This document shows, piece after piece, positions 9,688 through 45,966 of a DNA stretch of 64,000 nt (position 1 is the first letter of the stretch; each line of letters starts with the position of its first letter). A program made the translations under genes and the position numbers. The notes under the pieces were generated by a model. That model was not told the origin of the DNA. It was given only the letters and a program-made list of their open reading frames with translations, and ran no database searches. Source of the stretch: Marinomonas balearica (GTDB lineage: Bacteria; Pseudomonadota; Gammaproteobacteria; Pseudomonadales; Marinomonadaceae); NCBI RefSeq assembly GCF_004362145.1, contig NZ_SNXC01000015.1, positions 252,991 to 316,990 on the forward strand. Direction: 5' to 3'.

Positions 9688-9703
9688 CAGTTCTTCTTTT
9701 AGC

Positions 9704-9736: not shown

Positions 9737-9768
9737 CTATTGTTGTATATCGCTTGAGCTGTACCGAT

Positions 9769-11816: not shown

Positions 11817-11827
11817 CTCCAGTTGAA

Positions 11828-11861: not shown

Positions 11862-12030
11862 CATCTGTCACTATTCCTCGTACTTCATGAATACAAATGC
11901 TGTACCACTCAATACTTACTTCGCTTGTCATACATACACGCACATGTTCGAGTGGTATTATTTGGTTAAAGGTTAACCATTTTTACTGGTGATCGTGCAA
12001 GTAAACTAATTGGATTCAGTGAGGGATAGA

Positions 12031-28292: not shown

Positions 28293-29675
28293 ATGGACTC
28301 CGATTTTATGGCTCAAGATATTGTTGTATTAGCGGCTGGCAAAGGCAGTCGCATGAAATCAAATGCTCCAAAGGTGCTTCACAAAGTTGCTGGTAAGCCT
28401 ATGATTCATCATGTGCTTAATTTAGCTTCTCGCTTATCTGATTCGAAGTTGCACCTTGTTGTAGGTCATCACGGAGAATTGGTCGAAAAATCTTGTCAAG
28501 GTTTTAATGCCAATATTGTGTGGCAGGATAACCCTCAAGGTACGGGTGATGCATTACGCCGATCATCTGATTCATTGTCTGAGCGCGGATCAACATTAAC
28601 TCTGTATGGAGATGTTCCGCTTATTCAACAAGCAACATTAGCTAGAATGGTTGCTTTGTCTTCATCCAATGTCGTGGTTTTGTTAACTATTGAGCTAGAT
28701 GATCCTTCAGGATATGGACGTATTGTTAGGGATGATTCTGGAAAGGTTACGGCAATTGTTGAACAAAAAGATGCAAACGATGAACAGCTTAATATTAGTG
28801 AAGTTAATACAGGAATACTGTTGGCCCCTAATGCTCATCTAAAGCGTTGGTTAAGCAAGCTTACCAACAATAACGCTCAAAATGAATATTACCTCACTGA
28901 TATTATTGAAATGGCGGCAAATGAAGGTGTTGAAATAGTGACAGCCCACCCTGAGTTTGATTGGGAGGTGTCAGGAGTAAATGATCGTGTACAGCTTGCA
29001 ACGCTTGAGAGAGTTTGGCAGCGGTTTCAAGCTGAAACAGTTATGAAAAATGGCGCGACGTTAATGGATCCGGCTCGAATTGACATCCGAGGTGAGTTAA
29101 CTACAGATCAAGATTGTGTGATTGATATCAATTGTGTTTTCGAAGGTGATGTGAATTTAGGTAAAGGTGTTCATGTCGGCCCTAATTGCATACTTAAAAA
29201 CTGTTCTATTGCAGATGGTGTTGTTTTAAAAGCTAATACTATGATTGAAGATTCTGTTGTAGGTGAGTACTGCGAGATAGGTCCATTTGCTCGTCTTCGA
29301 CCTGGAACCAATTTAGCTAAAAAGGCAAAAATCGGAAATTTTGTCGAAACGAAAAAGGCTGTGATTGGAGAAGGGAGTAAGGTCAATCATTTAAGTTATA
29401 TTGGCGATGCTCACCTTGGATCTGCTGTGAACGTGGGTGCAGGTACAATTACCTGCAATTACGACGGCGTCAATAAATTTGAAACTCTGATCGGGGATCA
29501 CGTCTTTGTAGGCTCAAATACTTCTTTTGTTGCCCCAGTTGAAGTGCAAAGTGGAGCTACGGTTGCTGCGGGCTCAACGATTACAAAATCCGTTTCGAAA
29601 GATCAGTTAGCATTTGGTCGAGCAAAACAAATGAATATAGATGGTTGGGCGCGCCCGACGAAAAAGGAAAAGTAA
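28293..29675 (+). CDS. glmU: bifunctional GlcN-1-P acetyltransferase / GlcNAc-1-P uridyltransferase
   Basis: Makes UDP-GlcNAc for peptidoglycan, LPS and surface glycans. 460 residues. The N-terminal pyrophosphorylase has the loop LAAGKGSRMKSNAPKVLHKV (residues 13-32), QGTGDALR and YGDVPL. The C-terminal half is a left-handed beta-helix of hexapeptide repeats, with the acetyltransferase motif GNFVETKKAVIGEGSKVNHLSYIGD and NYDGVNK. Start at the ATG at 28293 (AGGA 5 nt upstream); an ATG five codons on is possible. glmS follows after one base, so they form an operon. Confidence 0.97.
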   Translation: MDSDFMAQDIVVLAAGKGSRMKSNAPKVLHKVAGKPMIHHVLNLASRLSDSKLHLVVGHHGELVEKSCQGFNANIVWQDNPQGTGDALRRSSDSLSERGSTLTLYGDVPLIQQATLARMVALSSSNVVVLLTIELDDPSGYGRIVRDDSGKVTAIVEQKDANDEQLNISEVNTGILLAPNAHLKRWLSKLTNNNAQNEYYLTDIIEMAANEGVEIVTAHPEFDWEVSGVNDRVQLATLERVWQRFQAETVMKNGATLMDPARIDIRGELTTDQDCVIDINCVFEGDVNLGKGVHVGPNCILKNCSIADGVVLKANTMIEDSVVGEYCEIGPFARLRPGTNLAKKAKIGNFVETKKAVIGEGSKVNHLSYIGDAHLGSAVNVGAGTITCNYDGVNKFETLIGDHVFVGSNTSFVAPVEVQSGATVAAGSTITKSVSKDQLAFGRAKQMNIDGWARPTKKEK

Positions 29676-29676
29676 C

Positions 29677-31506
29677 ATGTGTGGAATTGTTGGCGCGATT
29701 GCGCAGCGCAATGTGGCAAAAATTTTATTAGAAGGCCTGTCTCGCCTTGAATATCGTGGTTACGATTCATCAGGTGTTGCCATTAACAATGAGGTCGGAG
29801 TGCGAGCGCACCGTGCTGTCGGTAAAGTGCAGGCATTAAAAGATAAGTTTGAAGCGACCCCACTTGATGGGAAAATAGGCATTGCACACACGCGATGGGC
29901 AACACACGGTAAGCCAACTGAAAATAACGCTCATCCTCATTTTTCAGGTGATGACCTTGCAATCGTTCACAATGGAATTATTGAAAATCACGATAAGCTG
30001 CGTAATCAACTAAAGACGCAGGGCTATGTTTTTAAATCTGAGACAGATACCGAAGTCATTGTACATTTGATACATCAAGAATTACAAAGTGAACCTGATT
30101 TTCTTCAAGCTGTGAAAAATGCTTTGAAATATCTGGAAGGCGCATTCGCCATTGCTGTTACGTTGAATGATCAGAATCATCGGCTTGTCGCCGCGCGTAA
30201 GGGAAGCCCACTCGTAGTTGGTATCGGTATTGAAGAAAACTTTGTTGCTTCGGATCAACTTGCTCTTTTGCATGTAACAGATCAATTCGTCTTTTTAGAA
30301 GAAGGTGATGTAGTGGAAGTGACTCGTGACGGTGTTACCATTTTTGATTCTCAAGATGTGATTCAAGAGCGTCCGGTTCACGTTTTCAATCACAACGTCG
30401 ATGCGACTGATAAAGGTGAATTTCGTCATTACATGATGAAAGAAATCTACGAGCAGCCAAAAGTGATCGCTGCGTGCTTAGAAGGGCGTATCAGTGAGAA
30501 TAAGGTTCTGACTGATTGTTTCGGGGCGGATTCAAGTTTTCTGAAAAATGTCGAGAATGTCCATATCGTAGCGTGTGGGACAAGCTATCATGCAGGAATG
30601 GTGGCAAAATATTGGATCGAGGATTTAGCTAACCTGCCTTGTACAGTAGAAGTTGCGAGTGAATATCGCTACCGCAAAGTGGCAGTGCCTAAAAATACGC
30701 TCTTCTTGACTTTGTCTCAGTCGGGCGAGACCGCCGATACGCTCGCAGCGCTGCGTAAGGCGAAAGAGTTAGATTACTTGACTTCATTAGCGATATGTAA
30801 CGTCCCTTCTTCAACGTTAGTACGTGAATCAGCGTTAACGCTTCTTACCAATGCCGGAGCTGAAATCGGTGTTGCGTCTACTAAAGCCTTTACTACTCAG
30901 CTGACTGCTCTACTAATAACCGCGATTGCTATTGCGAGTGAGAAGGGTGCTTTGTCAGCTATTAAAGAAGCTGAGTTGGTTAATTCTATGCACTCTTTGC
31001 CAGCTCACATCGATGAAGCTTTAAAGCAAGATGTTGCAATTAAAAAGGTATCAGAGAGATTTGCGAATAAGCACAACGCCTTGTTCCTTGGACGTGGGCC
31101 GATGTTCCCAATTGCGCTAGAGGGGGCATTAAAGTTGAAAGAAATTTCTTATATTCATGCAGAGGCTTATCCAGCCGGAGAACTTAAACATGGGCCTTTA
31201 GCTTTAGTTGATGAGGATATGCCGATTATTTCGATAGTGCCTCACAATAGCATGCTTGATAAGTTGAAGTCTAATCTACAAGAAGTTGCGGCACGTGGCG
31301 GTGAATTGTATGTGTTTGCGGACAAAGATGCAGAGCTTCAAAATGCAGAGGGCGTGATATTTACTGAAGTGCTAAAGGTAGATGAAATTTTAGAGCCAAT
31401 TGTCCATGTTGTTCCCTTACAGCTGTTGTCTTATCATGTTGCAGTTGTTAAAGGGACTGATGTAGATCAGCCAAGGAATTTAGCAAAGTCGGTGACAGTG
31501 GAATGA
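29677..31506 (+). CDS. glmS: glucosamine--fructose-6-phosphate aminotransferase (isomerizing)
   Basis: Forms glucosamine-6-phosphate from fructose-6-P and glutamine. 609 residues starting MCGIVGAIAQ, so Cys2 becomes the N-terminal nucleophile of the class II amidotransferase after Met removal. The in-frame upstream codons belong to the end of glmU. The glutaminase half has GYDSSGVAI, HTRWATHG and HNGIIENH. Two SIS domains follow (CGTSYHAG, LSQSGETADTLAALR; FLGRGPMFPIALEGALKLKEISYIHAEAYPAGELKHGP), ending LAKSVTVE. An AAAAGGAAAAG SD lies within the glmU end. No glmS ribozyme is expected or seen. Confidence 0.97.
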   Translation: MCGIVGAIAQRNVAKILLEGLSRLEYRGYDSSGVAINNEVGVRAHRAVGKVQALKDKFEATPLDGKIGIAHTRWATHGKPTENNAHPHFSGDDLAIVHNGIIENHDKLRNQLKTQGYVFKSETDTEVIVHLIHQELQSEPDFLQAVKNALKYLEGAFAIAVTLNDQNHRLVAARKGSPLVVGIGIEENFVASDQLALLHVTDQFVFLEEGDVVEVTRDGVTIFDSQDVIQERPVHVFNHNVDATDKGEFRHYMMKEIYEQPKVIAACLEGRISENKVLTDCFGADSSFLKNVENVHIVACGTSYHAGMVAKYWIEDLANLPCTVEVASEYRYRKVAVPKNTLFLTLSQSGETADTLAALRKAKELDYLTSLAICNVPSSTLVRESALTLLTNAGAEIGVASTKAFTTQLTALLITAIAIASEKGALSAIKEAELVNSMHSLPAHIDEALKQDVAIKKVSERFANKHNALFLGRGPMFPIALEGALKLKEISYIHAEAYPAGELKHGPLALVDEDMPIISIVPHNSMLDKLKSNLQEVAARGGELYVFADKDAELQNAEGVIFTEVLKVDEILEPIVHVVPLQLLSYHVAVVKGTDVDQPRNLAKSVTVE

Positions 31507-32066: not shown

Positions 32067-32385
32067 CTCGACGCTATAATAGAAGATTATCGCTACAAAA
32101 TCCTAAAGGTCCTGAGTCAGGTCCGCACATCTGCCAGCGTGAGCTCGCTCGCCGTTTCAACATCAGCCTGGGCAAAACCAGTTTCCACCTCGAAGCTCTG
32201 ATTAGCGCCGAAAAGCTTCAAAAAACAACAAAAAAGGGTACTTATACCTGTTTACCCTGAGTAGTATTGAAGAAAAATCGGCACTGACAAAACGGTTTTT
32301 AGAACGAAAGATTAGAGAAAATGAAGAGCTGACGGCCGAGATAGCTAAATTAAGTATCGAAGCATCAGAACAAAGACGGTTGTAG
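32067..32385 (+). pseudogene. broken EPS-associated MarR-family transcriptional regulator
   Basis: Three frames together reconstruct the family. First, DYRYKILKVLSQ (about 32085-32118). Then, after a one-base loss near 32119, PHICQRELARRFNISLGKT and HLEALI, the helix-turn-helix. Then, after a slip in the A-runs at about 32219-32236, GYLYLFTLSSIEEKSALT followed by KRFLERKIRENEELTAEIAK, ending at the TAG at 32383-32385. This corresponds to the small (about 110 aa) MarR-type regulator normally found first in exopolysaccharide loci, with its winged helix and C-terminal coiled coil. The 5' end is unclear. It lies 41 bp before the cytidylyltransferase gene in the same direction. Either a genuine decay product or the result of homopolymer sequencing errors. 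Confidence 0.8.
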
Positions 32386-32426
32386 AGAATTTCTCAACGT
32401 AACTAATACAAGATTGGTAGTTTAAA

Positions 32427-33116
32427 ATGAGAACAGTTGCATTTATCCCCGCAAGAGGTGGGTCAAAAGGAATACCTGGCAAGAACATCAAAGACATTGC
32501 AGGAAAGCCTTTAATAGTATGGAGTATTGAGCGAGCTAAAAACTCCAAGTTGGTCGATAAGGTAATTGTTTCAACGGATAGCGAAGAGATTGCAAAAATT
32601 GCCAAAGAAAATGGTGCGGAGGTTCCCTTTTTAAGGCCGGAAGATATTTCAGGAGACACAGCGACTACCGAGAGCGCAATGTTGCATTATTGTGACTGGT
32701 TAGAAAAAAATAACGAGCTATATGATAATCTTCTTTTAGTTCAGGTAACATCACCTATTCGAGCTGAAACAAGATTTGATGATGCGATTAACTATTTTAA
32801 AAATAATCAACTTGATAGTTTGCTTTCTGTTTGCCCTTCCCACCGTTTTTTTTGGCGTGATTTAGAAAATCCTGTTGCATCATATGATTTTAAAAATAGA
32901 CCGAGAAGACAGGATTTAAAACAGAGTGAAATACCTTATATGGAAACCGGGTCATTCTATATAACGAAAATAGAAAAGTTAAGAAAACATAAAAATCGAC
33001 TATGTGGGAAAGTGGGCATGTTTGTAACACCAGAAGAAGAATCATATGAAATTGATTCTCTAGTTGATTTTAAATTCTGTGAAAGCATGTTAACGAATTC
33101 TATAGGAACTAAATAA
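32427..33116 (+). CDS. acylneuraminate (nonulosonate) cytidylyltransferase
   Basis: Activates a nonulosonic acid with CTP to the CMP-sugar; cytosolic. 229 residues with the diagnostic N-terminal loop IPARGGSKGIPGKNI (residues 7-21), then GKPLIVWSIERA, VIVSTDSEEIAKIA and LLLVQVTSPIR. The family resembles NeuA/PseF/LegF; substrate cannot be told apart by eye. The stop overlaps the start of the synthase gene (TAATG), so the two are coupled. Strongly AT-rich codon use marks the beginning of the acquired block. Confidence 0.9.
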   Translation: MRTVAFIPARGGSKGIPGKNIKDIAGKPLIVWSIERAKNSKLVDKVIVSTDSEEIAKIAKENGAEVPFLRPEDISGDTATTESAMLHYCDWLEKNNELYDNLLLVQVTSPIRAETRFDDAINYFKNNQLDSLLSVCPSHRFFWRDLENPVASYDFKNRPRRQDLKQSEIPYMETGSFYITKIEKLRKHKNRLCGKVGMFVTPEEESYEIDSLVDFKFCESMLTNSIGTK

Positions 33117-35389
33117 TGCTGATAGTAAAAGACATTCAGAAGTTTATGGTTTTTTCTGAAGATTCATTAGGCGATGTATTAAAGAAAATTAACGAAAACA
33201 AAGCACGTGTAGTGTTTGTTGTTACGGAGCATACAGTACTTTTAGGTAGCATTTCCGATGGAGATGTTAGGCGTTGGATGACTCAGAGTGAAACTATCAG
33301 TCTAGATGTTCCTGCTAAAGAAGTAATGAATGAGTCTTGTAAAACTTTCTTGCTAGGAGAAGACAAAAAGAATCTTGGAGCTTACTTTAAAGATGGAGTC
33401 GAATGTGTCCCTGTAGTCGATAGTTCTAATCATCTTGTACAACTGCTTTTTCAGAAAAATGATGGTTTTTTCATTGGGGAGCATGAAGTATCAGAAAGCT
33501 CGCGTTCTTTTATTATCGCTGAAATTGGCAACAACCATCAGGGTGACATTAATTTAGCAAAGCAACTAGTTGATCATGCAGTAGAGGCTGGAGTGGATTG
33601 TGCTAAGTTTCAGATGAGAAATGTAAAGCAGCTTTATGCGAATCAAGGTGACAGTGATGATGATTCTGCTGACTTAGGCGCTCAGTACACTATGGATCTT
33701 TTATCCCGCTTCCAATTGAGCAATGAGGAACTTTGCGAAGTCTTTGACTACTGTAAAGAAAAAGGCGTCATGCCATTATGTACTCCTTGGGATAAAGACT
33801 CTCTTGATGCTCTAGAAGAGTACGGAATGCCTGCTTATAAGGTCGCTTCAGCAGACTTCACCAACTTTGAACTCTTGGAAGCAATAACAAAAACAGGTAA
33901 GCCATTTCTGTGTTCAACAGGGATGTCTAGCGAGTCAGAAATAAAAAGTACAGTTACTTTTCTCGATAATTTAGGTGCAGATTATATTTTACTGCACTGT
34001 AACTCAACTTACCCAACGCCATTTAAAGATGTAAATCTTAAATACATGACACGTCTTAAGAAAATCACTGGAAAGCTAGTAGGTTATTCTGGACATGAAC
34101 GTGGAACTTGTATTCCTGTTGCCGCAGTGGCCTTGGGAGCAACTGTAATCGAAAAGCACCTTACTACAGACAAAAGTTTAGAGGGAACTGACCATAAAGT
34201 TTCATTGTTGCCTGACGAACTGAAATCAATGGTGGAGCAGATTCGTAGTCTGGAGGAAAGCTTAGGGTCAGATTTAGCTCCTAGAGAAATAACTCAAGGT
34301 GAGCTTTTAAATAGAGAAAATCTTGCCAAAAGTTTATTTGCTGCTTGTGAAATTAAAAAAGGTGAAAAAATAACTAGATCAAAAATAATGGTCAAAGCTC
34401 CAGGGCAAGGCTTACAACCTAATCGAATTGATGATTTAGTTGGTAAGATCGCTCACAGAGATATCGAACTTGATACATGTTTTTTTGACTCAGATATAAA
34501 TGGAGTTGTAGAGAAGAAACCGGAATATAATTTTAGTAGACCTTTTGGAGTTCCTGTTCGCTATCATGACTTAAGGAAAATTGTAGCAGATACAAATTTA
34601 GATTTTGTAGAATTCCATCTTTCATATAAAGACTTAGATGTAGATCTGTCAAAGTATTTTTCAGGTGAAGAAAGAATCGGGTTTGCTGTTCATAGTCCAG
34701 AACTCTTTTCTGGTGATCACATATTAGACCTATGTTCAGAAGACGAAGCATATAGAGAGCATTCAATTGCTGAGCTGAAACGAGTCGTTGAGATAACTCG
34801 AGATCTTAAAAAGTTCTTCCCAAAAACAGCGTGTCCAGTAATTGTTGTGAATGCTGGCGGATGGGACAGTAAAGGTTTTACTGATCAATCATTGAAAGAA
34901 CTTAAGTACCAAAAAATATCTGATGCTTTAAAACAGATTGATTTAATTGGTGTTCAAATTGCAATTCAAACAATGCCTCCGTTTCCATGGCACTTTGGTG
35001 GACAGTCATACCATAACCTATTTGTAGATGCGGATGAGATAGTAGACTTCTGTACTAGTAATCCAGATATAAAAATATGTTTAGATGTTTCACATTCAAT
35101 GATGTCCTGTAATTATTACGGTTGGGATCTTATTGAATTTGTTCGCAAGGTTTCTCCTTATAATGTCCACATGCATATCGTAGATGCAAAAGGTGTTGAT
35201 GGTGAGGGAGTCGAAATTGGAGAAGGCGATGTGGATTTTGAGGCATTGTCAAATCTATTAAACTCTTTAAACCCTGGCACTCAGTTTATTCCTGAAGTAT
35301 GGCAGGGACATAAGAACGGAGGCGAGGGGTTTTGGGTTGCGCTCGAATTTCTTCAAGAGGTGATGAATGAAGACTCTAGTACTTTATAA
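33116..35389 (+). CDS. CBS / NeuB-type nonulosonate synthase / SAF / TIM-barrel fusion
   Basis: 757 residues with four parts. Residues about 1-120 form a CBS pair (VVFVVTEHTVLLGSISDGDVRRWM). About 130-385 is a NeuB synthase domain with AEIGNNHQGDI at 135-145, KFQMRNV, LHCNSTYPTP and GYSGHERG at 323-330 (metal-binding His in each of the last two) and EKHLT. About 400-455 is a SAF/antifreeze-like domain (NRENLAKSLFAACEIKKGEKIT). About 475-757 is a xylose-isomerase-like TIM barrel (CLDVSHS, HMHIVDAKG, GEGDVDF). The core would condense PEP with a hexosamine-type sugar to a nonulosonate. NeuB alone is about 350 residues, so both flanking parts are additions. The barrel may perform an isomerase or epimerase step on the precursor; that is inference. 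Confidence 0.88.
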   Translation: MLIVKDIQKFMVFSEDSLGDVLKKINENKARVVFVVTEHTVLLGSISDGDVRRWMTQSETISLDVPAKEVMNESCKTFLLGEDKKNLGAYFKDGVECVPVVDSSNHLVQLLFQKNDGFFIGEHEVSESSRSFIIAEIGNNHQGDINLAKQLVDHAVEAGVDCAKFQMRNVKQLYANQGDSDDDSADLGAQYTMDLLSRFQLSNEELCEVFDYCKEKGVMPLCTPWDKDSLDALEEYGMPAYKVASADFTNFELLEAITKTGKPFLCSTGMSSESEIKSTVTFLDNLGADYILLHCNSTYPTPFKDVNLKYMTRLKKITGKLVGYSGHERGTCIPVAAVALGATVIEKHLTTDKSLEGTDHKVSLLPDELKSMVEQIRSLEESLGSDLAPREITQGELLNRENLAKSLFAACEIKKGEKITRSKIMVKAPGQGLQPNRIDDLVGKIAHRDIELDTCFFDSDINGVVEKKPEYNFSRPFGVPVRYHDLRKIVADTNLDFVEFHLSYKDLDVDLSKYFSGEERIGFAVHSPELFSGDHILDLCSEDEAYREHSIAELKRVVEITRDLKKFFPKTACPVIVVNAGGWDSKGFTDQSLKELKYQKISDALKQIDLIGVQIAIQTMPPFPWHFGGQSYHNLFVDADEIVDFCTSNPDIKICLDVSHSMMSCNYYGWDLIEFVRKVSPYNVHMHIVDAKGVDGEGVEIGEGDVDFEALSNLLNSLNPGTQFIPEVWQGHKNGGEGFWVALEFLQEVMNEDSSTL

Positions 35390-36296
35390 TAATTCTTATA
35401 GTAGAGACTTGAGTCTAGATTATCTTAAATCTAATGTCATGGAAGGTGAAGATTTAGTAGTAAATATTGGTATGACACCTCATGTAGATAGTCCGTATTG
35501 TAGTATCTACAAAAAAGGGGTTTTGAGTAGAGTTTCTTTAATAAAGAAGTTGAAGCGAATATCTGATCAATTCGATGTTTTAATTGTGCCAAATAGAAAT
35601 AGCATTGTCTCGAATGTTTTAATTAGTGCTTTTAAAGAGAAGACTGTTATTCAAGTGACTGAAGGAACACTAAATTATCACCAGAGACCTGAAGAGTCAC
35701 TCTATAAAGAGTGGTTTAAGAAAATACTATTACTATTTTATTTTGAGAAATACTATCGTGTGCAAGGAGATCCACTAGATCATATTGCTAGTAAAGATGG
35801 CGGTATTATTTGTAGGTCTGAGGTTGGTTTAGTTACTAATAATAAAAATATAATTAAGGTTAATAATTTAAAGGTCGAAAATAAAAAGAAGAATAATTTT
35901 CTTTATATTGTCGGTCAACATATCATTGAGAAGTCAAGTGATTTTGTGGGTTTGTCAAATATAAAATGCTGGATGGAAAGAAATAGTCTGTGTTTTGATG
36001 AGATCTTTTATATAAAGCATCCAAGATCTAAATTCGATGTGGAATATAGATATCTTACAGAGGGGATTGATTGTAAAGTTATAGACAACAAAACTAGTGC
36101 CTATGATATATGTACTCAAGTTCCACCATCACATGTTATTGCTCTTGGTGGATCTACTTTATTTCTTGAGTTATCCGATTTTATAGATATAAAGCGAACC
36201 GCCTTGGGTATAGATTTTTTGATCTCTAAAGGATTTTCTCAATACAGGCAGCTTAGGGATTTCCACGAAAATATTGGAGTAAATATCTATGAATGA
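35367..36296 (+). CDS. putative sialyltransferase-like glycosyltransferase
   Basis: 309 residues, no membrane segment or signal. Three short motifs occur in the order seen in bacterial GT-B sialyltransferases: an acidic-Gly motif TEG at 98-100, an HP motif IKHPR at 217-221, and GGST at 261-264. Together with the cytidylyltransferase and synthase just upstream, this suggests transfer of the CMP-nonulosonate to the repeat unit. Overall similarity to any named family is not obvious to me, so the assignment rests on motifs and context. The start overlaps the synthase gene by 23 nt, with AAGAGG as SD. Confidence 0.5.
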   Translation: MKTLVLYNNSYSRDLSLDYLKSNVMEGEDLVVNIGMTPHVDSPYCSIYKKGVLSRVSLIKKLKRISDQFDVLIVPNRNSIVSNVLISAFKEKTVIQVTEGTLNYHQRPEESLYKEWFKKILLLFYFEKYYRVQGDPLDHIASKDGGIICRSEVGLVTNNKNIIKVNNLKVENKKKNNFLYIVGQHIIEKSSDFVGLSNIKCWMERNSLCFDEIFYIKHPRSKFDVEYRYLTEGIDCKVIDNKTSAYDICTQVPPSHVIALGGSTLFLELSDFIDIKRTALGIDFLISKGFSQYRQLRDFHENIGVNIYE

Positions 36297-37080
36297 TTTC
36301 TTTAATGAAATGCAAGAATCTAGCTATTTTATGGAGGTTGATGGGGTTGATGAAAAAACTTCTCACAGCCTTCGTAAAAGGTTACGAAAGCATCTTCTTA
36401 ATTCAGGTGTAAGCATTGATGGAGGAGCATTACAGCCTGACTTATTTTCTTATGTAGAAAATGTATATGAAGCATTTTCTTCTTCTAAAGTTTTAAAAGA
36501 ATTGCTAAAAGATCATGATGTTATTTTCTGTCGACATGCAGATGCTCATTTAAACAAGGGAACTGGCTGGCATAAGGATCGTCCGGAAGATCGTTTTTTT
36601 AACGAAGATTATAATATTTATAAAATAGGAATATATTTGCAAGATCACACTTTAAAAAAATATAAGGATCGGGCTTTAAGTATTTTAAGTGGTTCTCATA
36701 AATATAAGGAATTGTTCTCTGAAAGCTGTAATGTGAAAGTAATTAACCCAAAAGCTCAAGATATATTATTCTTCGATTTAAGAGCTACTCATAAAGGAGA
36801 GGAGCTTAGTAAAGTTGAGAAGGTGATGAATAAATTTGGGGTGTTAAGTTGGTTGGATTATATATACGGCAGAGGTCTAAGAAAAAAAGAGGAGAAGTTA
36901 GCCGTGTTCTTTTCAGTTTGTATCTTTAAAAAAGGAGATAAAAAATTTAAATTTTTAAAAGATCATATGGCTGAGGTTAGTGAGCGTCAAAATAAACAGA
37001 ATAAGTCGGAAGGAAGTGATTCAGTCTTAGAGAAGAATATAAAAGGTCTTAAGGAAATTGGATTTAAATTTTATGAATAA
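36289..37080 (+). CDS. putative Fe(II)/2-oxoglutarate oxygenase (phytanoyl-CoA dioxygenase-like)
   Basis: 263 residues, cytosolic. The iron facial triad can be proposed as H95-x-D97 (GTGWHKDRPEDR) and distal H168 (FFDLRATHKG). The strand IYKIGIYLQDH and the LSGSHKYK turn are typical of PhyH-like double-stranded beta-helix proteins. No Arg is evident 9-11 residues after the distal His, where 2-oxoglutarate is usually held, so function is not certain. It overlaps the sialyltransferase-like gene by 8 nt and the next gene by 8 nt, placing it firmly in the operon. Possible roles are hydroxylation of the nonulosonate or of its substituent. Confidence 0.6.
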   Translation: MNDFFNEMQESSYFMEVDGVDEKTSHSLRKRLRKHLLNSGVSIDGGALQPDLFSYVENVYEAFSSSKVLKELLKDHDVIFCRHADAHLNKGTGWHKDRPEDRFFNEDYNIYKIGIYLQDHTLKKYKDRALSILSGSHKYKELFSESCNVKVINPKAQDILFFDLRATHKGEELSKVEKVMNKFGVLSWLDYIYGRGLRKKEEKLAVFFSVCIFKKGDKKFKFLKDHMAEVSERQNKQNKSEGSDSVLEKNIKGLKEIGFKFYE

Positions 37081-38278
37081 GAAAGTCTACCTCGTAAATG
37101 ACACCTCTGATGACTTGAATTGGGGCTGTAATGCAACAAGCTTGGCGTTAAAAGAAATTCTAAGAGATAAAGGTCACATTGTTGTTGGTGAGCCTTTACT
37201 CAAGAAAGCTAGTGGCGCAGAAACTGGTGGTTTTAAAAAATATATAAAAAAAATTGCGCATTATATATCCTCTAGGAGTAAGTTTTTAAATGGTCTTGTA
37301 TTTTCTCTCATAAAGGCATATAAAAAGAATAAACATGATTATATACCTTATAGCGTGGAAGAATTATTTGCAAATGAAGGGATTCCTAGCGAGTTAAAGG
37401 AGGAAGAGCATTTTATTTCTGACAGTGATGTAGTTCTAATTAATGGAGAAGGCAGTATTTATGATTCTCAAAGAAAAGGCTTTTTTCTACTTACATTAGC
37501 TCACTATTCAAAAAGTATAATGGGTAAGCCTACTTTTATGGTGAATCATACATGCTCCTTGACTGATAGGAGTATGAGGAATTTTGTGGATAAAATATAT
37601 CCAAAATTGGACGGTGTCCTTTTTAGAGAAGAAGTTAGTCAGAATGAATATAAAGCTTTAAATCAGGCTGATACTTTTGAAGTTGTTCCAGATGCCGCGT
37701 ATTATTATTTTAGGAAAGTAAAAATAAAGTCGCAGTACCTTGATTCAAAAAAAATAAAAAAAATATGCCTTGGTGGTTCATCCTTTTTCGGCAGAATTGA
37801 TCGGTATTATAAAGATCCAGTCGCTTCCTATATTGATCTTATAAAAAAGCTTAGAGGAAAAGGATATAGTATTGTTTTTGCTTGTGCCGATGAAGTGGAT
37901 GAGGCTATATATCTAAGAATAAAGGAAGCTATTCGTGATTTAGATTCTATTCCTCTACAAACACCTACGAATGATATTCTTGATTCTTTATCTGGTTGTG
38001 ATCTACATATTAGCGGAAGGTGGCATCCTGCTATATTAGCTGCTTGTGTTAATGTTCCTACCATTTCATTAAGTGCGAATACTTTCAAAACAAAAGCATT
38101 TCAAAAACAAGTGGGATTAAATATTCCTATTATAGATGCTTCTAATTTTTCTGCTGAGTTGATTATTTCAGAAATAGAATCACTAAATATTGATTTAGAA
38201 GTTTTTCAAGAATCAGTTTCTAAACTCAGTAAATTGTCGGTTCGAAATATAAGTGTATTGGATGAAATTCTACAATAA
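37073..38278 (+). CDS. polysaccharide pyruvyl transferase family protein
   Basis: 401 residues from the ATG at 37073, which overlaps the oxygenase stop; the TTG at 37058 is less likely. Family features: an N-terminal NWGCNATSLALKEIL (residues 14-28), LINGEGSIYD in the middle, LFREEVSQNEYKAL and VPDAAYYYF. The C-terminal half has SGRWHPAILAACVNVPTISLSANTFKTKAF, where RxHxxIxxxxxxxP is the usual signature. Such enzymes add ketal pyruvate from PEP to sugars of surface glycans, though some members are glycosyltransferase-like. Target sugar unknown. Confidence 0.8.
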   Translation: MNKKVYLVNDTSDDLNWGCNATSLALKEILRDKGHIVVGEPLLKKASGAETGGFKKYIKKIAHYISSRSKFLNGLVFSLIKAYKKNKHDYIPYSVEELFANEGIPSELKEEEHFISDSDVVLINGEGSIYDSQRKGFFLLTLAHYSKSIMGKPTFMVNHTCSLTDRSMRNFVDKIYPKLDGVLFREEVSQNEYKALNQADTFEVVPDAAYYYFRKVKIKSQYLDSKKIKKICLGGSSFFGRIDRYYKDPVASYIDLIKKLRGKGYSIVFACADEVDEAIYLRIKEAIRDLDSIPLQTPTNDILDSLSGCDLHISGRWHPAILAACVNVPTISLSANTFKTKAFQKQVGLNIPIIDASNFSAELIISEIESLNIDLEVFQESVSKLSKLSVRNISVLDEILQ

Positions 38279-39389
38279 CTTTATTAGATTTTTTTTATAT
38301 GCAGGAGCGTCCTCTGGAAATAGGGGGCTGCACCTTGTTGTTGGGTTGATTCTTCCTCTATTTTATAATGATGATGATTTAATAAAAACTTGGTACCTAT
38401 ACCTATCTCTTGGTCCTCTCTTCTATTATATTTTTGATGTGGGATTTAGTCGTATAGCATTTAGGGAGGCTTTCTCCAAAGATTTGTCAGAAGCTAATTT
38501 ATGTTTTCATTTTTGGGCGTGTTTAGCTGTTACAATTCTTGTTATATTGTTTGGAGTTGTTTTTGGAGGCGGTGTTATAATATTTGCCTTGATATATGGT
38601 CTACTTGAGAGTATTGCTAATAGCTTTTACAATTATTATCGAGGTATTGGAAAAGAAAAATTATCTTTTCTAATTAAGTATTCCCAGTCTATTTCTTGTT
38701 TTGTTTTTTTTATGGCTTTGTTTTTATATGAACAGCCTGAGTATATTTACATATTTTCATTATTGTCTTATCTCTTGACTTTTTTTATTATTTTATTTGT
38801 TTGTGATTTTAGGTTTTCGATAAATTATGGTTTAAATAGATACAGATTTTCAGTTTTTTTAAATGATTCGGTATGGTGGGCCCGTTCAACGAGTATTCCT
38901 CTAATAATTGGGGTTTTGTTCTCAGATAAAATAGTAATAGAACTAAGTCATACGTTAGTTCTTCTTCAGTCATTATTCGTAATAAACTCCGCATTAGATG
39001 GTGTTTTCTCAAGAGAACTATATAGCAGATATAGATCTAACGTTAGTGCGGTTCCAATTTTAATTTTCTGGGCTTTTGCGTTGTTTATTGTAATGTTCTG
39101 TTGTGTAGTTATAGGGTTGTTTGTTTTTGAGATGGATTTTTTATATGTTTTTCTTTGCTCTTTATATTGCTACCTTGTATCTATATCTTTGATTTTATCT
39201 AAAAAGTTATTTTTTTATAGAGAGACTGGGAAGGTGTTTTTTTCATCATTCATTGGGGTTATTTTAATTTTTATAATTTCTTTGTATGGGGTTTTATATA
39301 AAATTGAGGTTTGGTCTTTCTTGGTTGGCTTGATTGTTTCTTCGTCTTTTAGTGTGTTCTTTATTATTTTTTTTAGGGGTAGGAGGTGA
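38262..39389 (+). CDS. Wzx-like flippase / polytopic membrane protein
   Basis: 375 residues, about 10-11 hydrophobic helices with short charged loops, very rich in Phe, Ile, Leu and Val. It starts at the ATG at 38262 (a GTG three codons upstream is possible), overlapping the pyruvyltransferase gene by 17 nt. No conserved motif is readable, as is usual for Wzx. Its place directly before the Wzy-like gene in a glycan operon makes it the best candidate for the lipid-linked repeat-unit flippase. It is somewhat short for Wzx (usually 400-480). Extreme AT-rich codon use. Confidence 0.6.
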   Translation: MKFYNNFIRFFLYAGASSGNRGLHLVVGLILPLFYNDDDLIKTWYLYLSLGPLFYYIFDVGFSRIAFREAFSKDLSEANLCFHFWACLAVTILVILFGVVFGGGVIIFALIYGLLESIANSFYNYYRGIGKEKLSFLIKYSQSISCFVFFMALFLYEQPEYIYIFSLLSYLLTFFIILFVCDFRFSINYGLNRYRFSVFLNDSVWWARSTSIPLIIGVLFSDKIVIELSHTLVLLQSLFVINSALDGVFSRELYSRYRSNVSAVPILIFWAFALFIVMFCCVVIGLFVFEMDFLYVFLCSLYCYLVSISLILSKKLFFYRETGKVFFSSFIGVILIFIISLYGVLYKIEVWSFLVGLIVSSSFSVFFIIFFRGRR

Positions 39390-40582
39390 ACTATTTTTTC
39401 GTTTCCTGCTCTTTTTTGTTCACTTTTTTAGTGTTACTTATTTGTTGGTTCTTATTAGATAAAAGAGTCAGGTTTTTTTACACAATAATAATGTATTCTT
39501 TATTGAGTAAGCTAGCTTCAATATTCTACTTGTCAAATATTGAAGTGTTTATGATTGAACCTGGAGAAATGTCTAGTATTGATTTTTCATATGTCTATGT
39601 TTCTTTATTTCTTGTTGTGTTCTTCTTTTTTTCGGGTGGGTTGACTAGATTTTTTATTCCTTTTTTCGAAAGGAATAATTTTAATGGTTTGTTATATGAG
39701 AAGAAATTCTTTTTGTTTTTCCTGGTTTTTTCAATATTTTTTTACGTTTTAAATATTTTGTATTCTGCTGGCTCGATACCTGTAGATAGGTTTTATTTTT
39801 GGAAGATGGATTCATTTGTTCCAGAAGAATATATGGTTTTTGGGGTGCTAATGATATATTTTCCTGCCCTAGTTTCAGTTTTGTTTAATAGGAAGTCTAC
39901 AGTATTTTTTTATATGTCGTTGTATTTTTTTTACTTGTATATTTCTGGTCAAAAGTTTCATGGGTTTTTAGTTCCGTTCGCACTTTTCATTGCAGTTTTT
40001 AAAGTTCATTGTTGTTTTAATAGGAAAGAAAAAATATTTTTTTTACTGGCTTCGGTGTTAGTTGTTTTAATTGCAGCATACGACGTTTCCAAAAGAGGGA
40101 TTGCAAAAGGCTTTGAAGGTTTTTTAGACCCGATATTATATAGGTTTTTTGCCCTACAGGGCGCAGCTTTTAAAAGTTTATATCAAGAGTGCTTTAATGG
40201 CATAGAGTGCTCTGGGTTAAATTTTATGTCTTCAATGTCAGATGTTGTTATTGCTGTCTTGAATAAAGGTGGAGTTGATGCATATTTAGAAAAAGGTGTT
40301 AATCTATCGGTAGGCATTTTTCACTTGCCTTTTACAGATGGTTTTTTGGGTGTGATCTCTGTAGTTTTCTTTGCAATTATCAGTTCTGCTTTTTTAAGTT
40401 ATTTTTATGTTTCAGTTAGTCGGCGATCGTTGCTAGATATATTTTTTTGTTCATATGGATTCATATGGATGATTTCAATTGCTGCGCAAGGCTCAATCGC
40501 TTACTCTCTAAAAAAATTATTGATGTTATTTGTTATTCTCTTAGGTCTATTTTTTGTTAGAAAAATTTCAAGTAGGTGTTAA
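39386..40582 (+). CDS. Wzy-like O-antigen/capsule polymerase
   Basis: 398 residues starting at a GTG that overlaps the preceding stop (GTGA), with TAGGGG as SD. About 11 transmembrane segments with a larger periplasmic loop toward the C-terminus ([23 protein letters not shown]), the usual polymerase topology. No sequence motif is conserved enough for certainty. The call rests on topology, length and position between the Wzx-like gene and rfbB. Strongly AT-rich, like its three upstream neighbours. Confidence 0.6.
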
Positions 40583-40584
40583 CT

Positions 40585-41652
40585 ATGAATTTTTTAATAA
40601 CTGGCGGTGCCGGTTTTATTGGTAGCGCTGTAGTGCGCCATTTACTTTCATATACAGGTCATAGTGTTGTTAACCTTGATAAATTAACTTACGCGGGGAA
40701 TCTCGACTCTATCCCTGACCACTTAAAGTCTGATCGCTATAGCTTTGAGCAGGTTGATATCTGCGATAGTGCCGAGCTAGATCGCGTGTTCGCTACTCAT
40801 CAGCCTGACGTAGTGATGCATTTGGCGGCGGAAAGTCATGTGGATCGTTCTATTGATGGTCCTGGTGACTTCATCCAAACAAATATTGTCGGAACTTACA
40901 TCCTGTTGGAGGCTGCTCGTAAATATTGGGTGACATTAGAGAGCGAAAAGAAATCTGTTTTCCGCTTTCATCACATTTCTACCGATGAAGTATATGGTGA
41001 TCTTCCTCATCCTGACGAGGTTTATGGCGATTTGCCGTTATTCACAGAGACGACTTCATATGCTCCAAGTTCCCCTTATTCAGCCTCTAAAGCAAGCTCA
41101 GATCATTTGGTGCGTGCTTGGTTACGTACTTATGGCTTCCCAACAGTAGTGACCAACTGTTCTAACAATTATGGCCCATATCATTTCCCTGAGAAGTTAA
41201 TTCCCCATATGATTTTGAATGCACTAGCAGGTAAGTCGCTACCTGTTTATGGAGATGGCTCTCAGATTCGTGATTGGCTATATGTTGAAGATCATGCTCG
41301 CGCCCTAGTAAAAGTAGCTACTGAAGGTAAGGTTGGCGAAACTTATAATATTGGCGGCCACAATGAGAAGCGCAATATCGACGTGGTTAAGACATTGTGC
41401 GGACTGCTAGAAGAGTTTGTGCCTAACAAACCCGAAGGTGTTGAGCTGTATGCCGATCTGATTACCTATGTAATAGATCGTCCAGGCCACGATGTACGTT
41501 ATGCTATTGACTCAACTAAGATTGCCGATGAACTCGGTTGGACGCCAGAAGAAACTTTTGAGTCAGGGATGCGTAAAACAGTACAATGGTATTTGGAAAA
41601 CGAAGTTTGGTGGGAACGCGTTGTCAGTGGTTCATATAAACGAGAGCTTTAG
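40585..41652 (+). CDS. rfbB: dTDP-glucose 4,6-dehydratase
   Basis: Second enzyme of dTDP-L-rhamnose synthesis. 355 residues from the ATG at 40585 (AGGT upstream; a GTG at 40576 is in frame but less likely). Motifs are [12 protein letters not shown] at the N-terminus, [27 protein letters not shown], the catalytic YSASKAS (YxxxK) and [14 protein letters not shown]. Odd detail: the segment after the catalytic loop repeats DEVYGDLP, replacing the usual VENSE-type stretch. Codon use is markedly less AT-rich than the four genes before it. First of the four rhamnose genes, separated from rfbA by an acyltransferase gene. Confidence 0.96.
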
Positions 41653-41672
41653 ATGGAGAAGTTAAAAGCGTT

Positions 41673-43589
41673 ATGAAGAACAAAATATATTATAGGCCTG
41701 AAGTGGATGGTTTACGGGCTGTCGCAATTCTATTCGTTTTAATCTATCACGCAGGCTTCTCTTATAATGGGGAGGCTATCCTTAAGGGGGGATATATAGG
41801 TGTAGATGTCTTTCTAGTTATTTCAGGCTACTTGATATCCTCTATATTAATTAGAGAGGTTAAGGATGGTGAATTTAGCTTGTTGAAATTCTATGAAAGA
41901 CGTTTTCGAAGAATATTTCCTGCATTAATCTTTGTTTTATTAACAACGGTTGTTGTTTTTTATTTTGTTCTTCCTCCTAAGGCGTTAAAAGAGTTCTCTC
42001 TATCTGCCTTATCTACACTTTTCTTTTCTGCAAACTTCTTTTTTTATTTTGAAGATAGTTACATGGCAGAAGCTAGTCAACTTAAGCCATTGTTGCATAT
42101 GTGGAGTTTAGCGATTGAAGAGCAATATTATATATTTTTCCCTTTTTTGATATTGTTGCTTACCAATAAAAGAAAGCTTGTATTTTTAGGTTCTATATTT
42201 TTATTGTTTTTTATGTCTTTGCTTTTTTCTACGCATATGGCAACTGCTAACTCAGAAGCAAATTTCTTTCTTCTACCATCTAGGGTTTGGGAGTTTCTTG
42301 TTGGTACAGTTATTGCGTTTAACACTTCGTATCTGATTTTTAAAAAGAAGTCATATATATATGATATAGTCTCTTTAATTGGCCTTTCCTTAATTTTTTC
42401 ATCTGCGATTTTTTTTGATTTTCAGACTAAGCATCCCTCTTTCTATACCCTGTTTCCAGTTTTGGGTTCTGCTTTGATTATATTATTTTCGAATAATTCG
42501 ATTTTATTTAATCGTTTTATCTCAAGTAAATTGTTGGTTTTTATAGGGCTGATTTCCTATTCTCTATATCTTTGGCATGTTCCTGTTTTGGTTTTTGGTA
42601 GGTATTTAGGCTATCTTGATAATAATTTAAATAAATTTACATTTTTGTTTTTTTCGTTTTTTCTTTCGTTGTTCACCTTTTATTTTGTTGAAAGTGTATT
42701 TAGGAGCAAGAAAAATTTTACGATGAAAAAACTTTATTTGATATTTTTACCTACATCGTTTTTGCTATTTATTTTTCTAGTATTTTTTGTTTTTACAGGA
42801 GGTGCAAACTATCGATATTCTAATATAGACTTTGATGCGGCAAAGCTATCAAGCGAAAGAAGAGATTACGTAAAGAAAAATAAAAGTAAGGTTTTTCAAG
42901 ATAATGGCTTGAAAAATATAGTAATTGTTGGCGACTCCATGTCAGAGGGTTTGTTTATTTCCCTGAAATCTTCTGATTGGGGTAAAGGTAAATTTAATGT
43001 TCAGCCTTTACCATTTGATGATACTTGTTTTATGGCTTGGTATAATTTTGATAGATTTGAGAATTTAGTTGAGGCATCTCCTTATATATATAGGAGGTGT
43101 GATGTTAATAAACTCAATCGTCTAAAATCGCATTCTTTGATTGAGAATGCAGATATTATTATAGTTTCGGCTGCATGGACAAATTTTAGCACATCATTAC
43201 TACCCGGATTTATTGACTATTTGCATCGTGAATACTTACCTGATCGTGTGATTTTGATTCAGAGGCAGGTTTTTAAAGGAAAAATTGAGGATATGCTTAT
43301 AGAGTATGCCTCGAAAGAAGTTGACTTGAGTGTTGGTGAATTTTTATATAAAAATCGAAAGCCAGACCAAGTAGTAGTAGATCGTCTTAAAAAAATATCT
43401 ATAGAAGAAAATGCCGAATTTATTGATTTATCTGGTCTTGTATGCAATGTATCTGATGGTTGCATATATAAGGCTGAAGATGAATCATTATATATCGATC
43501 ATATACATTGGAGTGTTAAAGGCGCTGAACTTGTTGGGGAGAAAATTATAGATGAGGATGTCTTACTCTCAGATTATATCGATAGGTAA
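41673..43589 (+). CDS. OafA-type membrane O-acyltransferase with SGNH domain
   Basis: 638 residues. The N-terminal part is an acyltransferase-3 membrane domain with about 10-11 helices, including RPEVDGLRAVAILFVLIYHA and the SLAIEEQYYIFFP segment. A C-terminal SGNH-hydrolase-like domain begins around residue 415 with IVGDSMSEG (nucleophile Ser) and ends with IDHIHWSVKGAE (catalytic Asp-x-x-His). Such OafA-like enzymes move acyl, often acetyl, groups onto O-antigen sugars in the periplasm. The AT-rich gene is inserted between the more GC-rich rfbB and rfbA, as if acquired separately. Confidence 0.88.
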   Translation: MKNKIYYRPEVDGLRAVAILFVLIYHAGFSYNGEAILKGGYIGVDVFLVISGYLISSILIREVKDGEFSLLKFYERRFRRIFPALIFVLLTTVVVFYFVLPPKALKEFSLSALSTLFFSANFFFYFEDSYMAEASQLKPLLHMWSLAIEEQYYIFFPFLILLLTNKRKLVFLGSIFLLFFMSLLFSTHMATANSEANFFLLPSRVWEFLVGTVIAFNTSYLIFKKKSYIYDIVSLIGLSLIFSSAIFFDFQTKHPSFYTLFPVLGSALIILFSNNSILFNRFISSKLLVFIGLISYSLYLWHVPVLVFGRYLGYLDNNLNKFTFLFFSFFLSLFTFYFVESVFRSKKNFTMKKLYLIFLPTSFLLFIFLVFFVFTGGANYRYSNIDFDAAKLSSERRDYVKKNKSKVFQDNGLKNIVIVGDSMSEGLFISLKSSDWGKGKFNVQPLPFDDTCFMAWYNFDRFENLVEASPYIYRRCDVNKLNRLKSHSLIENADIIIVSAAWTNFSTSLLPGFIDYLHREYLPDRVILIQRQVFKGKIEDMLIEYASKEVDLSVGEFLYKNRKPDQVVVDRLKKISIEENAEFIDLSGLVCNVSDGCIYKAEDESLYIDHIHWSVKGAELVGEKIIDEDVLLSDYIDR

Positions 43590-43628
43590 TTATATTAAAA
43601 AGTATTAAGTTGATTTTTGGGCATTCAA

Positions 43629-44516
43629 ATGAATATATCAAAGCGTAAAGGAATTATTTTAGCTGGAGGAAGCGGCACCCGCCTGCATCCGCTGACATTG
43701 GCGACTTCTAAACAGCTCATGCCAGTCTATGACAAACCCATGATTTACTATCCGTTATCGGTGCTAATGTTATCTGGCATTAGGGAAATCCTGATTATTA
43801 CTACGCCAGAAGATCAGTCTAGCTTCCAATATCTTTTGGGAGACGGCAGTCAGTTTGGTGTAGAGTTAAGTTATGAAGTGCAGCCTTCGCCAGATGGCTT
43901 GGCGCAAGCATTTGTCATTGGTGAGACGTTTATTGGTGATAGTGATGTTGCGTTAGTGCTTGGGGATAACATTTTCTTTGGGCAGCATTTTTCGGACAAG
44001 CTAAAAACAGCGGCAGCTCAAGTATCCGGTGCAACCGTGTTTGGTTACCATGTACATGATCCAGAGCGATTCGGGGTGGTGGATTTTGATGCGACGGGTA
44101 AGGCCATTAGTATCGAAGAAAAGCCCGCTAATCCTAAGTCTAACTACGCAGTAACTGGACTGTATTTTTACGATAACGATGTCGTAGACATTGCAAAAGC
44201 TATTAAGCCATCGGAGCGTGGTGAATTAGAGATTACCGATGTGAACTTGGCCTATTTAGAGCGTGGTGACTTGCAAGTGTCATTACTGGGGCGCGGATTT
44301 GCTTGGCTAGATACTGGCACTCACGATTCTTTGTTAGAGGCTGGTCAGTTCGTTCAAACCGTAGAGCATCGTCAGGGCTTGAAGATCGCTTGCTTGGAAG
44401 AGATTGCATACCGACACGGTTGGATTACTACTGAAGAATTGAAAGGTGTTGGCTCTTCGATGAAGAAAACTGGCTATGGGCAGTATCTACTTAAAGTGGC
44501 AGATGGATATCAGTAG
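43629..44516 (+). CDS. rfbA: glucose-1-phosphate thymidylyltransferase
   Basis: First enzyme of dTDP-L-rhamnose synthesis: Glc-1-P plus dTTP to dTDP-glucose. 295 residues from the ATG at 43629 (a TTG at 43617 is in frame). Motifs are [42 protein letters not shown] and [20 protein letters not shown]. It lies 24 nt before rfbC. Codon use matches rfbB, rfbC and rfbD rather than the acyltransferase gene just upstream. Confidence 0.97.
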
Positions 44517-44540
44517 CTCTAAGATTGAAGGATAATTATT

Positions 44541-45074
44541 ATGAATATTATTAAAACATCGATTGCCGATGCTGTGATCATAGAGCCTAAGGTCTTTGGA
44601 GATGAGCGTGGTTTTTTTCTTGAGACATTTCAGGCCGAACGTTACGCTGACGTAGTAGGCATCGATCTTCCATTCGTCCAAGACAATCATTCCCGCTCTT
44701 GTAAGAATGTATTACGCGGGTTGCATTTTCAAAAGTCCAAGCCACAAGGAAAGCTTGTACGTGTGGTTCGAGGAGAAGTGTTTGATGTCGCCGTCGATAT
44801 TCGTAAAGGCTCGTCGACCTATGGTCAGTGGGCTGGTGTCTGTTTGAGCGAAAACAATAAGCGTCAGTTTTGGGTGCCGCCAGGCTTGGCCCATGGATTT
44901 GTTGTCTTATCTGAGGTTGCTGACTTTGAGTACAAGTGCACGGATTACTATGACCCGTCTGATGAAGGGGCGTTAATTTGGGATGACCCTGATGTGGGAA
45001 TCAAGTGGCCTGAAGGTATTGAGCCTATTCTGTCTACTAAAGACCAATTGGCGTTACGGTTAAAAGATATTTAG
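44541..45074 (+). CDS. rfbC: dTDP-4-dehydrorhamnose 3,5-epimerase
   Basis: Third step of dTDP-L-rhamnose synthesis. 177 residues, one cupin fold. Visible: FGDERGFFLETFQAERY, FVQDNHSRSCKNVLRGLHFQ with the catalytic His, GEVFDVAVDIRKGSSTYGQW, and WVPPGLAHGFVVLSEVADFEYKCTDYY with the catalytic Tyr region. AAGGA precedes the ATG. Tightly spaced between rfbA and rfbD. Confidence 0.96.
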   Translation: MNIIKTSIADAVIIEPKVFGDERGFFLETFQAERYADVVGIDLPFVQDNHSRSCKNVLRGLHFQKSKPQGKLVRVVRGEVFDVAVDIRKGSSTYGQWAGVCLSENNKRQFWVPPGLAHGFVVLSEVADFEYKCTDYYDPSDEGALIWDDPDVGIKWPEGIEPILSTKDQLALRLKDI

Positions 45075-45093
45075 AAGAGCGTAGTAGCAAACC

Positions 45094-45966
45094 ATGCGAA
45101 TTTTATTAACAGGTAAGAATGGTCAATTAGGTCGTTGCTTTCTTGATGTAGCAAGCTCTGAACATGAGATATATGACTTCGGCTCTGATCAATTGAATAT
45201 CTCAGATCCGAGCCAAGTTGCTGAGCGTATCGCTCAGGTTAAGCCTGATATCATCGTTAATGCAGCGGCTTATACCGCTGTTGATAAAGCAGAAGAAGAA
45301 AGTGAGCGTGCCTATGCAGTTAATGAATTAGGCGTGAAATATCTAGCAGAGCAGGCAGTTTTGCTAGATATCCCTGTTATTCATGTATCAACAGACTATG
45401 TTTTTGATGGAAAGGCTGTTATGCCTTACCTGCCTAGCGATCAAACGAATCCACGAGGTGTTTATGGTGCGTCGAAGTTAGCAGGTGAGAAGGCTTTGGC
45501 TGTTGTAACGACAAAATATATCGTGTTACGTACTGCATGGGTGTTCAGTGAATATGGTAACAACTTTGTGAAGAGCATGATTCGTTTGGCGAAAGAGCGA
45601 GATTCTCTTAATGTGGTGGCGGATCAGTATGGTTGTCCTACCTATGCTGGAGATCTCGCGGTTGCGATTAAAGAGCTTTGTGAGCAATACCAATCGCAAA
45701 ACGAGCTTCCATGGGGGATTTATCATTATTGTGGTGATACACCCGCTAGCTGGCATGGTTTTGCACGTACGATATTTGCTTTAGCAAAAGAGCGTGGCGT
45801 GATTGACAATATTCCGAAGTTGAGTGCAATTAGTTCAGATCAATATCCGACGCCTGCTAAACGGCCTGAATATTCTGTGTTGAATCTAGAGAGCCTTCAT
45901 AAGTTAGGGGTTCAAAAAAGTCAGTGGATAGATTCTTTGAACCAAGTATTGATAAGGTTGATGTAA
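45094..45966 (+). CDS. rfbD: dTDP-4-dehydrorhamnose reductase
   Basis: Final step giving dTDP-L-rhamnose, NAD(P)H-dependent. 290 residues. Rossmann loop LLTGKNGQLGRCF, NAAAYTAVDKAEEE, HVSTDYVFDG, catalytic YGASKLAGE (YxxxK), and VLRTAWVFSEYGNNFVKSM. The stop overlaps the start of the GT2 gene (TAATG), so the rhamnose genes and that transferase are coupled, suggesting that the transferase uses dTDP-rhamnose. Confidence 0.96.
   Translation: MRILLTGKNGQLGRCFLDVASSEHEIYDFGSDQLNISDPSQVAERIAQVKPDIIVNAAAYTAVDKAEEESERAYAVNELGVKYLAEQAVLLDIPVIHVSTDYVFDGKAVMPYLPSDQTNPRGVYGASKLAGEKALAVVTTKYIVLRTAWVFSEYGNNFVKSMIRLAKERDSLNVVADQYGCPTYAGDLAVAIKELCEQYQSQNELPWGIYHYCGDTPASWHGFARTIFALAKERGVIDNIPKLSAISSDQYPTPAKRPEYSVLNLESLHKLGVQKSQWIDSLNQVLIRLM

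Follow-up and report, generated by a model that had tools for sequence, protein, structure and literature searches.

The locus considered here, from Marinomonas balearica, raises the question of whether five overlapping genes act together to make, oxidise, attach and pyruvylate a sialic-acid-like sugar, as a preliminary description had proposed. In our best reading, to which we give roughly an even chance, the genes belong to a surface-polysaccharide operon of the Wzx/Wzy type in which KDN is made and transferred, the KDN or its neighbour is oxidised, and pyruvate is added. Positions refer to the window, which is the whole stretch of 64,000 nucleotides that was analysed (genome of 3.88 Mb in 17 contigs).

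Gene layout and composition

The five genes lie on the plus strand. The g1 gene (32427-33116) encodes a CMP-nonulosonate, probably CMP-KDN, synthetase (PF02348, CTP_transf_3, 97.7 bits, above the curated cut-off), and g2 (33116-35389) encodes a fusion of CBS, NeuB, SAF and TIM domains by Pfam, a probable KDN synthase with an isomerase-like domain. These are followed by g3 (35367-36296), encoding a sialyltransferase-like protein and probable KDN transferase on the basis of predicted fold and motifs, by g4 (36289-37080), encoding a PhyH-like Fe(II)/2-oxoglutarate oxygenase on the basis of predicted fold and an HxD...H triad, and by g5 (37073-38278), encoding a polysaccharide pyruvyltransferase (PF04230, 63.9 bits against a cut-off of 25.3) whose start is the ATG at 37073, with a TTG at 37058 as the alternative. 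The consecutive overlaps measure 1, 23, 8 and 8 bases, so the five overlapping reading frames of the preliminary description were borne out. Their extent held only in part, as the overlapping run continues by 17 bases into g6 and by 4 bases from g6 into g7.

Both of the latter genes, also on the plus strand, encode membrane proteins. The product of g6 (38262-39389) has 10 hydrophobic stretches of 19 residues and no match in Pfam or NCBIfam, and judging from its place it is a probable Wzx-like flippase. The product of g7 (39386-40582) has nine such stretches and a match to the Pfam family DUF6418 that falls under the cut-off (21.4 against 25 bits), and it is a probable Wzy-like polymerase. The remaining polysaccharide genes on this strand (40588-46883) are, according to Pfam, rmlB, an acyltransferase-SGNH gene, rmlA, rmlC, rmlD and a family 2 glycosyltransferase gene, and Pfam also places a mannose-1-phosphate guanylyltransferase-type gene in the locus together with rmlABCD and the acyltransferase. 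Upstream of g1, at 28293-31506, stand genes of the glmU and glmS type, named by eye from their sequence.

The five genes had also been described as sharing one composition, and this claim failed: the G+C content is 35.8% in g1 and 37.8% in g2 and drops to 30.1-32.4% in g3 to g7 (window, 41.0%).

An ops/JUMPstart element before g1 was considered and rejected. Allowing two mismatches, 36 matches to the consensus were counted where 27.35 were expected by chance, 6 of 100 shuffles gave as many, and the sole match between glmS and g1 lies on the minus strand with two mismatches. The same interval holds, at 32070-32387, the remnant of a small regulator gene in pieces spread over three frames, which by eye resembles an intact gene of the MarR_EPS type in another locus (L050, 2919-3236) whose product scores over the TIGR04176 cut-off.

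The synthetase, the synthase fusion and their product

All four Pfam domains of g2 (CBS, NeuB, SAF and AP_endonuc_2, a xylose-isomerase-like TIM barrel) score above their curated cut-offs. Against the NCBIfam equivalog models g2 stays below the cut-offs for both NeuB (328.9 against 399.65 bits) and PseI (247.1 against 340.25 bits), as g1 does for PseF (157.3 against 205.7 bits).

Our data on the acceptor site point to KDN. Arg314 of meningococcal NeuB contacts ManNAc, and the R314A variant is inactive (PMC6795526). In the structure alignments this position is Arg in the wild-type meningococcal enzyme and Ala in chain 4ipi, and it aligns with Ala428 of g2. Arg occurs in none of the 202 fusion rows besides those of the window itself, its place being taken by Ala, Ser, Cys, Gly or Thr; over all 204 rows, which include the window gene twice and may include some other proteins twice, 192 have Ser and the remainder Ala, Cys, Gly or Thr. 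The lack of Arg suggests an acceptor without an N-acetyl group.

The closest characterised parallel is found in Serratia marcescens, whose NeuB belongs to PF03102 and carries COG1082 as an additional domain; deletion of neuB in the KL1 strain lowered sialic acid 4-fold and abolished the capsule, and the KL1 and KL2 polysaccharides contain KDN and Neu5Ac at about 20:1 (PMC9000132). The neuA-neuB pair of KL1 and KL2 resembles g1-g2 in that the synthetase adjoins a NeuB extended by a sugar isomerase/epimerase domain, and in opening the variable part of the polysaccharide locus. The passages of that report that bear on KDN tie no oxygenase to its genes, and a pyruvyltransferase appears there as an abbreviation in the legend to Fig. 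3. The likeness of g2 itself was judged through a stand-in, the S. proteamaculans fusion of locus L043, which has the same four domains and is 60% identical to g2 over 750 columns; a member of the synthetase cluster (9308-9994) lies directly before this fusion, which starts at 10001. The combination of a CMP-sugar synthetase with a CBS-NeuB-SAF-TIM fusion is therefore of a known kind, and the synthase half of the operon is not new, since this architecture has already been tied to KDN in Serratia. With Arg314 missing and the Serratia fusion so tied, the sialic-acid-like sugar of the preliminary description can be narrowed, and KDN is very probably the product of the g1/g2 pathway.

Fusions of this kind are widespread. 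Of 8000 candidates scored, at least 7664 proved to be relatives of g2 at E values up to 1e-60, and the 120 matches listed all have both NeuB and TIM domains. A pattern search of the GTDB collection gave 530 matches, of which 468 code for a g2 relative; the best 80 of these 468, hereafter the fusion loci, come from cyanobacteria, nitrifiers, rhizobia and marine Gammaproteobacteria. Within the genus, nearly full-length g2 was found in 4 of 47 other genomes, one of them reported with an internal stop codon. Of 79 loci, 66 have a member of the synthetase cluster no more than 9 kb away from the fusion, and in 49 the distance is 300 bp at most. The second commonest neighbour family reaches 21 of 79, and no common precursor pathway was found beside the fusion across these 79 loci. 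The absence of a shared precursor pathway suggests that the acceptor is produced by the fused barrel itself. The barrel may, however, have changed its chemistry: Gln618 of g2 is invariant (205 of 205 rows) where the barrel of PDB 3wqo has Glu, which renders its activity uncertain and argues against the standard epimerase mechanism.

Two further nonulosonate sets were observed. The same genome carries a separate pseudaminic set (L148, G000:C6:33500-50500) with a PseI of 487.7 bits and an adjoining PseG, both above their cut-offs, and with a protein that partly resembles the flagellin modification protein PseD. Elsewhere in the genus, in L127 (G010:C1:632000-651500), the synthetase and fusion likewise follow genes of the glmU and glmS type, and a second nonulosonate set stands downstream of the fusion in place of g3 to g7.

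The probable transferase, oxygenase and pyruvyltransferase and their possible linkage to the fusion

The g3 protein matched no family in Pfam or NCBIfam and none of the curated sialyltransferase models (GT38, GT52 and GT80). Its structural model is of low confidence (pLDDT 53.7); rows 1-14 of the VIA-align list obtained with it are sialyltransferases, and the first Foldseek match was 5wcn. The TEG, HP and GGST motifs are kept in both known sequences of the g3 type. A g3 profile gave weak matches to transferase-like genes of other fusion loci (E values of 0.014 and 0.0015 in single comparisons, probabilities of 3 and 17). Relatives of g3 and g4 are very few, and g3 has a single one besides itself; for both this relative and the best relative of g4 the longest contig given is 14692 bases, and the two likely stand on one and the same contig. 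We regard g3 as a KDN transferase with fair confidence.

The g4 protein is predicted to fold as the double-stranded beta-helix of 2-oxoglutarate oxygenases. No match to PF05721 (PhyH) was found in g4 itself at E values up to 0.1, and its sole Pfam match is below threshold and irrelevant; PF05721 is above the cut-off in the relatives from Bowmanella pacifica (L077) and Tistrella and slightly below it in those from Sphingobium (L080) and in P0003. The PhyH assignment thus follows from the scores of the relatives together with the predicted fold. HxD...H is the metal triad motif of Fe(II)/2OG oxygenases, and in g4 it corresponds to H95, D97 and H168, which are invariant in all six sequences of the g4 type. 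In 2OG oxygenases an Arg that binds 2OG follows the distal His by about 10 residues. At this position, assigned by eye, four of the six sequences, g4 included, have Lys, one has Arg, and the L080 protein has Ser. That g4 acts on KDN is a little less than evenly probable. A single KDN-specific clade of oxygenases was considered and is not supported, as the KDN-linked sequences fall into two groups that both have unlinked members and the label is no more clustered than by chance (151 of 500 shuffles scored as low).

The g5 protein is not CsaB, scoring 43.9 bits against a cut-off of 213.1. Its relatives lie directly before the synthetase in two fusion loci (L054 and L056) and directly after the fusion in a third (L100), and one adjoins the oxygenase in the Tistrella-like cluster described below; identity to g5 is 35% in L056 and 29% in the Tistrella-like cluster. 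No relative was found in the 47 other genomes of the genus at E values up to 1e-8. The chances that g5 acts on KDN appear evenly balanced. Sequence searches with g3, g4 and g5 against solved structures returned nothing usable.

An oxygenase profile (A2) was built from g4, P0002, P0003 and P0004 before any locus was inspected. Over the open reading frames of 112 loci it gave two strong matches besides the window, at 171.6 bits in L077 and 143.2 bits in L080, and both fall within the fusion loci (the best 80 of 468). The oxygenase of L077 (8451-9311) is followed by the synthetase (9324-10001) and the fusion (10001-12250); that of L080 ends at 8973, with the fusion starting at 9995 and a synthetase-like frame at 12316. 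The distance from oxygenase to fusion is thus about 0.7 and 1.0 kb, respectively, and neither genome has a second oxygenase match. The background is low. In the order, profile A2 had no match in the 389 other genomes, it matched 3 of 288 genomes in the class of L080, and a further profile (A4) matched 3 of 368 other genomes in the class sample and none of 397 in the phylum sample, the samples overlapping; the TIM part of g2 was found in 2 of 368 other genomes of the class sample. If the rate in the class is applied to the 1.45 Mb covered by the 80 fusion loci, the expected number of oxygenases, as estimated from typical genome sizes, is well below 0.1.

Viewed from the oxygenase, the linkage is less regular. 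Six genomes with an oxygenase of the g4 type were compared (G469, G607, G558, G1295, G1300 and G1368), and the fusion is present in G1295 alone. In G1368 a NeuB that lacks the barrel stands about 10 kb from the oxygenase, G1300 has a weak match to part of the NeuB domain of g2 (26% identity) on another contig than the oxygenase, and G469, G607 and G558 have no match to g2. Rhizobial plasmids carry remote relatives of g4, which in L114, L116 and L118 stand among exopolysaccharide-type genes near 11.5-12.8 kb, and no relatives of g1 or g2 were found within 12 kb of the PhyH relatives in these three loci. As a separate observation, one locus of G1300 (L136, G1300:C4:40500-60400), a genome without the fusion, has three PhyH-type matches side by side.

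The only other genome found with all five functions is G1295, a Tistrella-like alphaproteobacterium, which carries them in one cluster on the minus strand (L141); it was also the only one of three genomes searched in its order to have the oxygenase. The synthetase (14191-13529) is 46.7% identical to g1 and is followed by the fusion (13476-11158), which lies 7.6 kb from the oxygenase. Next are four genes which, judged by eye, comprise one ManC-like, one chain-length-like and two for membrane proteins; after them come a GT52/polysialyltransferase (6104-5070; PF07922 at 28.4 and PF07388 at 28.3 bits, both above cut-off), a pyruvyltransferase (5021-3657; PF04230, 45.4) and the oxygenase (3587-2628; PF05721, 26.6). 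The cluster resembles the window in bringing the five functions together, with the last three genes adjacent. It differs in its gene order, in the four genes that separate fusion from transferase, in the identity of only 29% to each of g4 and g5, and in a transferase from a Pfam family that does not match g3. Beyond this cluster only single partners were found: in 5 of the 80 fusion loci (the best 80 of 468) either an oxygenase (L077 and L080) or a pyruvyltransferase (L054, L056 and L100) stands alone beside the fusion, and the gene after the fusion varies widely, the commonest Pfam family fitting 5 of 64 members. The conserved co-occurrence that the preliminary description had suggested looking for was thus found in one other genome, and the full five-function set is rare. 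Measured against the refuting condition set in that description, that the five genes seldom stand together elsewhere, the outcome is mixed.

Proposed pathway and alternative explanations

The five genes would stand first in a surface-polysaccharide operon of the Wzx/Wzy type. The g2 enzyme would form KDN by condensing phosphoenolpyruvate with a hexose that carries no amino group, most likely mannose, and its isomerase-like TIM barrel could plausibly supply this hexose from a common sugar, so that no precursor genes would be needed. CMP-KDN would be made by g1 and the KDN transferred into the repeat unit by g3; g4 would oxidise the KDN residue or its neighbour and g5 would add a pyruvate ketal, after which g6 may flip the repeat unit and g7 polymerise it. 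The joint action proposed in the preliminary description is partly sustained, in that the classes fit and the five functions recur in L141; this recurrence is rare and the oxygenases form no single clade. A narrower version is tentative: g4 would hydroxylate or otherwise oxidise KDN itself, for instance at C3 or in the side chain, and g5 would place its ketal on that residue too, so that a module common to unrelated Proteobacteria would yield a hitherto undescribed sialic acid, both oxidised and pyruvylated. We rate it rather unlikely, the more so as only one of the six tested genomes has the fusion near the oxygenase.

The new part of the operon is predicted to be the joining of an oxygenase and a pyruvyltransferase to the known synthase half. 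Pyruvylated KDN as predicted for the window glycan has a precedent in Promicromonospora citrea, which has KDN with a 7,9-pyruvate ketal, and Cobetia marina carries a 7,8-pyruvate on Kdo; the P. citrea polymer, in contrast, belongs to a Gram-positive cell wall, and the passage describing it makes no mention of KDN oxidation (PMC6801904). A report joining KDN with an oxygenase was not found in titles and abstract beginnings among the papers listed from the open-licence PMC literature, which subscription journals mostly lie outside. The dioxygenase KdoO is 2OG-dependent and acts at C3 of Kdo. It converts distal Kdo to Ko in a surface polysaccharide (PMC5462993) and thereby resembles the putative role of g4, in which a related 3-deoxy-ulosonic acid of a surface polysaccharide would be altered. 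KdoO is absent among the matches listed for g4 by sequence and by fold, an absence that excludes nothing.

The targets of g4 and g5 are the point at which the main alternative departs. KDN may be built into the polymer while g4 and g5 act elsewhere in the repeat unit, on rhamnose, mannose, another hexose or an acyl group, a possibility that we place clearly below an even chance. The oxygenase and the fusion, each found in fewer than 1% of the class sample, are nevertheless no more than 8 kb apart in L077, L080 and L141, and relatives of g5 stand beside the synthetase or fusion in three loci, while none was found in 47 other genomes of the genus at E values up to 1e-8; both patterns argue for action on KDN. 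The alternative can call on the rmlABCD, mannose-1-phosphate guanylyltransferase-type and acyltransferase genes of the same locus, on the oxygenase relatives in exopolysaccharide clusters that have no g1 or g2 relatives, and on the fact that pyruvate ketals are common on ordinary hexoses (PMC6801904). A nonulosonate other than KDN, be it Neu5Ac, a sugar of the legionaminic or pseudaminic type or a further ulosonate, is improbable. The partial matches of g1 and g2 to the NeuB, PseI and PseF models would suit such a product, as would the little Neu5Ac that the Serratia strains also make (PMC9000132), but g2 scores below the NeuB and PseI cut-offs and lacks Arg314, the genome has its own separate PseI beside PseG, and no epimerase of the NeuC kind was found with Pfam among the 19 proteins scanned at the locus.

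Chance mosaics often arise in surface-polysaccharide loci, and the five genes could be one of these, without a joint pathway. The composition step between g2 and g3, the varied gene after the fusion, the scarcity of g3 and g4 relatives and the genome of the same genus (G010) in which the synthetase and fusion follow glmS and are then succeeded by other genes are all consistent with a mosaic; the overlapping reading frames, the likely placement of the only g3 relative and the best g4 relative on one contig, and the recurrence of the five-function set in L141 make it improbable.

Should the preferred reading of an operon that makes, attaches and tailors KDN be true, a KDN-linked oxygenase would be a new way to tailor a sialic acid. 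The thousands of fusion relatives in widely different bacteria suggest that KDN may occur on bacterial surfaces more often than the few chemical reports of it imply, and the fused TIM barrel offers a simple way to test how KDN can be made by bacteria in the absence of precursor genes.
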